Of a DNA stretch of 35,616 nt, positions 22,784-25,420 are shown piece after piece. The DNA is from Candidatus Brachybacterium merdigallinarum (GTDB lineage Bacteria; Actinomycetota; Actinomycetes; Actinomycetales; Dermabacteraceae). Position 1 is the stretch's first letter; each line of letters starts with the position of its first letter. Where the stretch lies: positions 1 to 35,616 of the forward strand of contig DXDT01000168.1 of assembly GCA_019115335.1 (NCBI GenBank), in the 5' to 3' direction. The translations under genes were made by a program, and so were the position numbers. The notes beneath the pieces are model-generated. The model had not been told where the DNA came from. It searched no databases and saw only the letters and a list, made by a program, of their open reading frames with translations.

Positions 22784-25420
22784 GTGGATCTCATCACCAG
22801 TTTCCCCCTCGGCGACGACATCGCCGTGACCCTCCTGGTCCTCGCGACCCTGTCGATCCTCGCCCTGGTCGCAGGGGCGGTGATCCCGGCTCGGCTGGGG
22901 CGCCCCGCCGCCCTGGAGGCCGCGGGCGAGGACGCTGACGACGAGGACGACGCAGTCGACGCGGACGACTCCGACGCTGCGGACGACGCCGATGCCGCGG
23001 AGGAGAAGCGCAGACGGCGGACCGCGAAGCTCGAGACCTCCGGCAGGAGCGAGAAGAGCGCGAAGACCGAGAAGGTGAGGGCCGAGAAGGTCGAGAAGAG
23101 CGGGAAGGGCGTGAGGTCCGGCACGGGCGGGTCGGATTCCGGGTCCGACCCGCAGCAGCGCCACGACGGCGCCCAGGGTCGCTGGCTGGGGGCGCACCTG
23201 ACTGCCGCGGGCAGTGTGATGCTGTGGGTCGGGGTCCCGGCCCTGCTGCTGCTCTACCTGGTGCCCGGCTCCACGGATATCCGGATCCTGCGCTCGGCGA
23301 TGATGCTGGTGGGCATCCTGGTGGGCCTCCTCGCGGCCTGGCGCGGCCTCGCGCTGCAGACCGCCGTCCAGCGCATCGAGCCCGAGGCGCGCGCCGCCTG
23401 GGTCCCGCGCCTGGGCGGGCTCACCGTCACCGGGGCGCTCGCGCTCGCGATCCTGCCGGTGGTGATCATCCTGTGGTTCATGCAGGAGCTGGCCTCCTCC
23501 GGGCTGGTCGCCCTCGCCGCCGGTGCCGCTCTCAGCGCCCTCGCGCTGCGCGCCGCCGTCTCCTCGATCGACACCGCCGCGACCTCCTCTGCGCTCCTGG
23601 TGGGCGCGGAGGAGAACGAGCTGAGGGTCGACGACGACTCCAACCTCGGCACCCCGCACCTGCGCATCGCCCGCATGTTCCGACGCGGCGCCGCCGGCAG
23701 CGCGGACATCGTCGCCGTGACCCTCGCGCTCGCCGCCATGGGCGTCCTGCTCGGCGTGCCGGTGCTGGCGGGGGAGGGGATCCTCGTGGTGCTGCTCGGC
23801 CTCGGCGTCGCGCTGCTGACCGCCGCCGCCGGAGCCGTGCTGCCCCGGATCGCCGCCGAGGGCCGCGAGAGCGCCGCGCTGCGACTGGCGGGTATCGTCC
23901 CGGCCGTGCTGGGCGGGGTGGGCATGACGGTCGCCGCCGCGCTCTGGCTGCCCAGCGCCTACCAGGACCTGCGCTTCTCCCATGTGGGCCTGGACCAGAT
24001 CAGCGAGGCCGCCGTGACCGGGGGCGAGCCCGTGCCCCGCGCCGACCTCGAGGAGCAGCTGCTCACCGCCGGGGCGGACATGTCGCAGTGGCTCTCCGCC
24101 GCGGACGACTCCACCTACTCCGGCGCCCTGATCGACATCCTCGCGCTGTACCAGACCTCCCCGAGCGCGGTCACCGCCGGCGCCCTCGGCCTCGGCGTGG
24201 TGATCGCCCTGGCTGCCGCGCTGCTGGTGGGCACCGCGGCGGACCGCCATCGCAGCACCGTGCTGCGGGCCGCGCGCACCAGCCGCACCGGCGGGCCGCT
24301 CGGCGTCGTCGCGGCGCTCGGCTCGACCGCTCTGACCGCCGCCGGGGCCCTCGCCCTGGTGGTCCTCGCCGCGACCGTGCTCAGCGTGCTCAGCGCCGGC
24401 GTGCCCGGACTCGCCCTCGCCCTGCTGGTCCACGCCGGCCTCGGTGCCCTGGTGGTCGCCGCCGGGTTCGCCGGCTCTCTCGCCGCACCCGCGCTGCTCG
24501 AGGAGCCCGGCACCGATCCGGCCCTGCGCTCCGCCGCCGCCGGGGCGGCGCTCGCCCCCCGCACCGCCCTCCTGCTCGCGGCGGTGCTCCCGGCGCTCGG
24601 TGCGCTCGGCCCGGTGGTCACCGCGATCCAGGTCGCGCCCCGCGCCGGCACCGTCTGGCAGGACCGTGCCCTCCACGCCCTGACCCCGACCGCGCTGCCG
24701 GTGCTGGCCGGGATCGCCCTGGGCATGGTCGCCATGCTGCTGGTGATCGCCTCGCTGCTGGACTCCGCTCGACGCACGGGAGCCCGCAGCGTCGTCGAGA
24801 CCCGTGCCGCCGTGCTCGAGGGCGGCCGCGAGGTGCGGATGGACGAGCTGCCCCCGGCCGTGCGCCGCGGTGCCACGACCCCCGTGATCATCGGGGTGCT
24901 CACCCCGATCGTGGCCGGGTTCGGCCTCGGGGCGGCCGCCCTGCCCGGGGTGGTCATCGGCGTGGTCGTGGTCGCGGCAGGGCTCGGCCTGTGGACCCTG
25001 GCCACCTCCACCGTGCTCGAGGGAGCCACCGACGTGATCGAGGCCGGCCGGTACGGCGGTCCCGGCTCCTGGGCCCACTCCGGGGCGCTGAACGGCGCGG
25101 TCCTCACCGGGGTGCTGCGCGGGGCGATCGGCGGCATGGCGCTGCCGATGATGCTGGTCACCTCGCAGATCGCGGCGGTCTCGGTCAGCTCCCTGGTCTC
25201 CCTGTATGCCGCGGACACCAGCGAGTACCTGCTGTGGGGCGTCGCGCTGCTGGGCATCCTGGTGGCCGGCACCAGCTGGGTGATCGCCGCGACCGCTCCC
25301 GAGATCGACCTCGAGGACTCGCACGGGGAGCTCTCCACGCCGCTGTTCTCCCGCCCCCAGGAGGACACCGGCGACACCCTGGACTCCATGTCCTGGGAGG
25401 ACGAAGAGCAGGGCCGCTGA
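22784..25420 (+). CDS. Polytopic membrane protein homologous to membrane-bound H+/Na+-translocating pyrophosphatase, catalytic residues not conserved
   Basis: Block-wise gapless similarity to the M-PPase family (PF03030): [70 protein letters not shown]. GTG start. Confidence 0.75.
   Translation: [878 protein letters not shown]

Follow-up and report, generated by a model that had tools for sequence, protein, structure and literature searches.

A membrane pyrophosphatase homologue of Brachybacterium and related Dermabacteraceae that appears to have lost its hydrolytic centre

Membrane pyrophosphatases (M-PPases) are treated as uniformly catalytic, and they serve both as models of coupled ion pumping and as drug targets in protist parasites. 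They are homodimers in which D6.43 and D16.39 form the general-base pair that activates water, K5.58 and K16.38 bind phosphate, K12.50 pairs with D6.43, and the gate is made up of D6.50, E6.53, S6.54, N16.46 and K16.50 (PMC5150537). In the plant enzyme, loop 8-9 contributes to the contact between subunits (PMC8657866). The protein described here, referred to as pseudo-M-PPase, is encoded in the window, that is, the whole 35,616-nucleotide stretch of DNA that was analysed. The gene and the first of its cytoplasmic loops are located as follows.

22784..25420, plus strand: pseudo-M-PPase gene, an open reading frame with a GTG start encoding 878 aa
22898..23149, plus strand: cytoplasmic loop 1-2, an acidic low-complexity stretch (GAC-rich, 9-nt period) followed by a basic one

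The coordinates of this reading frame and the peptides quoted from it in an earlier, sequence-only reading are exact. The GTG start is backed by an N-terminus, VDLIT.F.LGDD, that is conserved among the orthologs, and a GC3 of 0.95 fits a protein-coding gene of a G+C-rich genome. The AlphaFold model has 17 predicted membrane helices, the boundaries of which are our own reading of the model, with the N-terminus outside and the C-terminus inside. Lysine and arginine account for 4 of 137 outside residues and 37 of 250 inside residues, a positive-inside distribution consistent with this topology. The charged low-complexity loop reported after TM1 is present in the window protein (acidic GAC-rich 9-nt repeats at 22916-22999 and then a Lys/Glu-rich stretch), but it is lineage-specific: loop 1-2 varies among species from absent to long, and in most orthologs it is no more than a short RRDED...EVD loop. 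The charged loop is not a hallmark of the family, and the occurrence of the acidic stretch in some species only points to a recent repeat expansion.

The product of 22784-25420 is a remote M-PPase homologue that shares common ancestry and fold with these enzymes, as had been proposed from the sequence alone. The window protein matches NCBIfam NF001952 (sodium-translocating pyrophosphatase) with E = 1.3e-9 (36.7 bits, cut-off 912), and a phmmer comparison with the Thermotoga maritima PPase gives E = 2.9e-4. Its own match to PF03030 is insignificant (E = 1.8, 7.6 bits, cut-off 29.7), yet 15 of 21 orthologs match this family at E<=1 (best 7.5e-13) and several Brachybacterium members exceed the cut-off, e.g. 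G009 at 49.2 bits. A profile of the 21 orthologs retrieves the T. maritima PPase from the PDB with E = 1.3e-13, and a profile-profile comparison with seven canonical HppA sequences of this order, including four from Brachybacterium, extends over 690 columns at 22% identity (E = 5.5e-36). The AlphaFold2 model of the window protein is confident (pLDDT 84, pTM 0.87), and all 36 matches that Foldseek finds for it in the PDB at E<0.001 are M-PPases, with TM-scores of up to 0.74. The model of a Dermabacter-type homologue (24-30% identity) is of low confidence (pLDDT 64); its matches at E<=0.001 are M-PPases only, which would weakly support a shared fold. The alignment with the canonical catalytic block that had been made by eye was reproduced independently by MAFFT, including DDDSN opposite DDPRN, and the scaffold motifs TSRTG and TP/SP..LVG fall where they had been placed.

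We assigned the residue numbers to Brachybacterium HppA ourselves, guided by the spacing of motifs and by what is generally known of the Vigna radiata PPase. With this numbering, three regions of the chain bear on catalysis.

23549..23719, plus strand: TM5, loop 5-6 and TM6 (aa 256-312), the former hydrolytic centre; DVGADLVGK and DNVGDNVGD replaced, D6.43 changed to R301, DD..N of loop 5-6 and D6.50 (D308) kept
24548..24619, plus strand: TM12 (aa 589-612); coupling lysine K12.50 and K12.46 lost
25013..25156, plus strand: TM15, loop 15-16 and TM16 (aa 744-791); WDNAKK lost, K16.38 changed to R779, D16.39 to G780 and K16.50 to L791

The sequence-only reading had described the catalytic centre as erased, and this is borne out for nearly all of it. 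DVGADLVGK has become TSSALLVGA and DNVGDNVGD has become LRIARMFRR, exactly as quoted there; towards the C-terminus the loss extends, as also claimed, to a motif of 11 residues in the TM15-TM16 region, and to WDNAKK; K5.58 is missing as well. Of the 20 side chains of the hydrolytic centre, one (D283 in loop 5-6) survives in the window protein, and both general-base aspartates are lost. Among 27 relatives (21 Brachybacterium sequences and six from other Dermabacteraceae), 0-2 of the 20 positions are kept within the genus and 0-4 outside it, and D16.39 is absent from all 27, its place being taken by G, S, A, N or F. The part that was not erased is the DD..N of loop 5-6, where the window protein retains D283, D284 and N287 and the asparagine is present in 20 of 21 orthologs; E277 is kept in 27 of 27 relatives. 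The alignment is least certain in TM11-TM12, owing to a shortened loop 11-12. A genus g24 member (L083, genome G064) has the most residual centre, with four of the 20 catalytic residues, including two aspartates, the first one in DVGAD and the middle one in DNVGDNVGD, and may be the least derived form.

The columns that are invariant in canonical enzymes have not been lost evenly: 2 of 44 D/E/K/N columns are kept, compared with 24 of 73 G/P columns and 8 of 17 arginines (D/E/K/N versus G/P, Fisher p=2e-4), so the loss is selective for chemistry, with the scaffold spared. In silico, the Mg-PPi hydrolytic centre and most of the ion gate are gone. With the metal-PPi site and the general base absent and the gate mostly hydrophobic, PPi-driven pumping is very unlikely, and the protein presumably neither hydrolyses PPi nor pumps ions.

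Two genes flank pseudo-M-PPase.

20720..22699, plus strand: thioredoxin-like and NHL-repeat protein (NHLRC2-like; Pfam), 84 bp upstream of pseudo-M-PPase
25503..26087, minus strand: TetR-family regulator (Pfam), convergent, downstream in Brachybacterium loci and in G064

The pseudo-M-PPase gene is found at the same locus in 37 of 38 Brachybacterium genomes (a few copies are fragments at contig ends), and the gene order across the genus is HAD, NHL-thioredoxin, pseudo-M-PPase, TetR (minus strand) and dCTP deaminase. When GTDB contigs were queried with the alignment, each of the 22 loci recovered came from Brachybacterium, which places the window in this genus. In the window, a tRNA-Gly gene (anticodon CCC; 26183-26254, minus strand) lies between the TetR and dCTP deaminase genes, and the same conserved neighbourhood includes a 976-aa MrpA-type antiporter subunit with MbhD, MbhE and MnhB domains (29446-32376). 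Homologues with 24-43% identity are present in three other Dermabacteraceae genera (g23, g24 and g25), where they immediately follow the same NHL-thioredoxin gene. Genera g26 and g27 of this family have the NHL-thioredoxin gene, and a whole-genome protein search together with ORF listing found no pseudo-M-PPase in them; the corresponding downstream loci are L153 (g26) and L151 and L152 (g27). Genomes of g27 are small, at 1.9-2.0 Mb; in the g26 genome a canonical hppA is present elsewhere.

Searches of the order (297 genomes) and of the phylum (297 genomes) found full-length members in Dermabacteraceae only, with partial matches outside. The 19 outside loci examined encode ordinary M-PPases, a 10-residue motif being intact in 19 of 19 and DNVGDNVGD in 18 of 19, and ORF listing at 12 loci of other families found no divergent homologue beside the NHL-thioredoxin gene. 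The NHLRC2-like protein, which combines a thioredoxin fold bearing a WTFCCVNC site with NHL repeats, adjoins pseudo-M-PPase in those Dermabacteraceae loci with the gene whose sequence extends far enough. Since it is conserved throughout the order independently of pseudo-M-PPase, its proximity is weak evidence for function, and it is probably the older resident of the locus. In a maximum-likelihood tree, 15 pseudo-sequences form one clade (100/100) relative to 24 canonical sequences, which is consistent with a single origin; the stem between the two groups is very long (∼3 changes per site), so that the origin cannot be placed within the canonical tree. Pseudo-M-PPase is probably a pseudoenzyme that arose from an M-PPase on a single occasion, in the ancestor that Brachybacterium shares with its relatives among the Dermabacteraceae.

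Four regions carry conserved features of the family.

23948..24160, plus strand: extracytoplasmic loop 8-9 (aa 389-459), which exceeds its canonical counterpart by ∼50 aa and has family-specific conserved residues
24620..24694, plus strand: extracytoplasmic loop 12-13 (aa 613-637), with a conserved VW(E/Q)DRALH and W625, D627, R628 and L630
25046..25090, plus strand: cytoplasmic loop 15-16 motif of 15 residues (aa 755-769) in the GRYGGxGSWxH loop, near invariant in Brachybacterium and weaker elsewhere
25289..25417, plus strand: cytoplasmic C-terminal tail with DLED and PLF; D842, L843 and D845 in 27 of 27 relatives

The conserved novelty of pseudo-M-PPase lies mostly in extracytoplasmic loops 8-9 and 12-13, together with the Asp-to-Arg switch in the old active site. 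Conserved residues of the loop 8-9 region are W388 (at the end of TM8), P390, Y393, R397, G402, D408, R419 and D451; W388, Y393, R397, G402, D408, R419, D451, W625, D627, R628 and R301 are each present in at least 24 of the 27 relatives. The mean identity across genera is 0.39 in loop 8-9 versus roughly 0.35 in the membrane helices. In loop 15-16 the columns that are invariant within the genus run from G755 to S766; neither the GRYGG motif nor R779 is retained in the most divergent genera. The role of loop 8-9 in the subunit contact of the plant enzyme fits a retained dimer, and pseudo-M-PPase is probably still dimeric.

The reading that we tentatively prefer is that pseudo-M-PPase is a non-hydrolytic scaffold or receptor embedded in the membrane. 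Loop 8-9, enlarged and conserved on the extracytoplasmic side, would form its working surface together with loop 12-13, and in the cytoplasm the Arg-rich vestige of the former pocket, the GRYGGxGSWxH loop and the DLED tail would pass on a signal or hold a partner. Against this reading stand the small lead in conservation of loop 8-9 over the membrane helices and the loss of the GRYGG motif and R779 in the most divergent genera. A primary ion pump could in this way have been converted once, in the Dermabacteraceae, to a non-hydrolytic membrane receptor or gate in which a conserved arginine in the old active site replaces the acidic metal ligands and the working surface has moved outside, a proposal that we put forward with less than even confidence.

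The protein could instead be a passive or secondary transporter or a channel that reuses the M-PPase pathway without PPi, the gate pair still left being R256 of TM5 and D308 (D6.50); this is one of the two main rivals, although we consider it unlikely. D6.50 is kept in 16 of 21 Brachybacterium and five of six other Dermabacteraceae sequences and the TM5 arginine in 17 of 21 and five of six, respectively, and to this extent the earlier picture of the site has to be amended; the complete set of helices is also retained in the predicted model. However, D6.50 is all that remains in the window protein of the gate set D6.50, E6.53/6.57, S6.54 and K16.50, the other gate positions having become hydrophobic (E6.53 to Ala, S6.54 to Val or Leu, N16.46 to Leu and K16.50 to Leu), and the R256-D308 pair could be a mere structural salt bridge.

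The substituting arginines raise the other main rival, likewise improbable, namely that the former pocket now serves as a metal-free anion site, with Arg in place of Asp or Lys on TM6 and TM16, which would bind phosphate, nucleotide, polyphosphate or anionic lipid and act as a sensor or a new enzyme. The change from D6.43 to R301 is common to 24 of 27 relatives, that from Asp to R297 in the old pocket to 14 of 21 Brachybacterium sequences and that from K16.38 to R779 to all 21, with R294 and R756 also conserved in Brachybacterium. Outside the genus only R301 is widely kept, R779 being replaced by Thr or Ala in genera g23 and g25, and a conserved candidate nucleophile or general acid-base pair is absent.

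It is very unlikely that pseudo-M-PPase is a regulatory subunit that heterodimerises with the canonical H+-PPase and tunes it. The homodimeric architecture of M-PPases (PMC5150537) and the co-occurrence of both proteins in 17 genomes would favour such a role, but canonical hppA, which lies at a different locus, is found in only 18 of 38 Brachybacterium genomes, and 20 of the 38 keep pseudo-M-PPase with no canonical hppA match, the window's own genome (81% complete) among them; the identity between the two proteins is also only ∼22%. A general role as an HppA partner was rejected on this distribution. Essential PPi disposal is likewise unlikely, a soluble PPase being present in 46 of 47 Dermabacteraceae genomes. 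With hppA patchy and soluble PPase near universal, neither hppA partnership nor PPi disposal explains pseudo-M-PPase.

That the protein is a still-active M-PPase with relocated ligands is highly improbable. The DD..N of loop 5-6 does survive, and migrated catalytic residues are known among pseudoenzymes generally (PMC10211241), which gives relocation a general precedent. The only acidic residues that are invariant within the genus (D12, D128, E277, D441, D842, E844 and D845) are too few and too dispersed along the chain for several Mg ions and PPi, and an alignment-free check found no invariant Lys or Asn in the genus family. No conserved cluster of acidic residues was found anywhere along the chain across the family, and a relocated active site, which the sequence-only reading had named among the findings that would overturn it, was rejected on this ground. 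None of the other refuting findings that it named was borne out either.

In the closest pairs dN/dS (NG86) is 0.10-0.25; distant pairs reach 0.39, with dS increasingly unreliable there. In these in silico comparisons the gene is under purifying selection, in agreement with the earlier suggestion that selection maintains the fold in a protein that no longer hydrolyses PPi. It does evolve faster than canonical hppA, with 75% versus 91% identity in one genome pair. The gene is split over several frames in L071 (Brachybacterium sp. Z12, genome G022) and at G021:C1:1121233-1123619, with a single break in G021; the genes neighbouring the Z12 copy also align only partly, so the frame breaks in G022 look like assembly indels. 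In G024, the sole genus genome in which the gene is missing, the contig stops within the upstream gene. A decaying pseudogene or an assembly artefact, to which the frame breaks and the faster evolution might point, is extremely improbable and was rejected, given the low dN/dS, the open reading frames and fixed synteny in most genomes, and an occurrence that reaches well beyond one genome.

The preferred reading of pseudo-M-PPase as a scaffold or receptor can be set against the known systems. With the canonical K+-independent H+-PPase of Brachybacterium (HppA, e.g. L031 and L032) it shares the order of helices, including the 17th, throughout the 690-column alignment, and the scaffold motifs TSRTG, P..VGFG(L/I)G and GG.GS. 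It differs from HppA in its low identity (22%), in the loss of the catalytic D/E/K/N residues, in its locus, in a loop 8-9 that is longer by ∼50 aa and in a loop 11-12 that is shorter by ∼15 aa. Among solved structures, the best matches are the T. maritima Na+-PPase and the V. radiata H+-PPase; compared with these, pseudo-M-PPase is without D6.43/D16.39, K5.58, K12.50, K16.50 and E6.53 and has an extra C-terminal helix and tail. Ancestry and fold place the protein with the M-PPases, but the defining hydrolytic and gating features are almost all missing, and on these it does not belong among the pyrophosphatases. The automatic label 'sodium-/proton-translocating pyrophosphatase' can mislead here because some members pass the PF03030 cut-off.

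No M-PPase pseudoenzyme was found described in the 5.4 million open papers searched, and the words 'inactive' and 'non-catalytic' are absent from a 2024 review of microbial pyrophosphatases. If the proposed conversion of a pump to a receptor or gate is true, no functional pseudoenzyme derived from an M-PPase would have been known before pseudo-M-PPase. A clade that is conserved yet naturally disarmed reveals what evolution retains of the scaffold once hydrolysis and gating are dropped, and provides a natural separation-of-function set for models of coupling.

Pseudoenzymes usually act as scaffolds, switches or allosteric partners (PMC10211241, PMC11266112). As an enzyme homologue that has lost its catalytic residues and is under purifying selection, pseudo-M-PPase fits this class, and it resembles pseudokinases, pseudophosphatases, iRhoms and pseudopeptidases in that the fold has remained under selection after the catalytic residues were lost. 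Unlike in those families, what appears to have been disarmed in pseudo-M-PPase is a whole primary ion pump.
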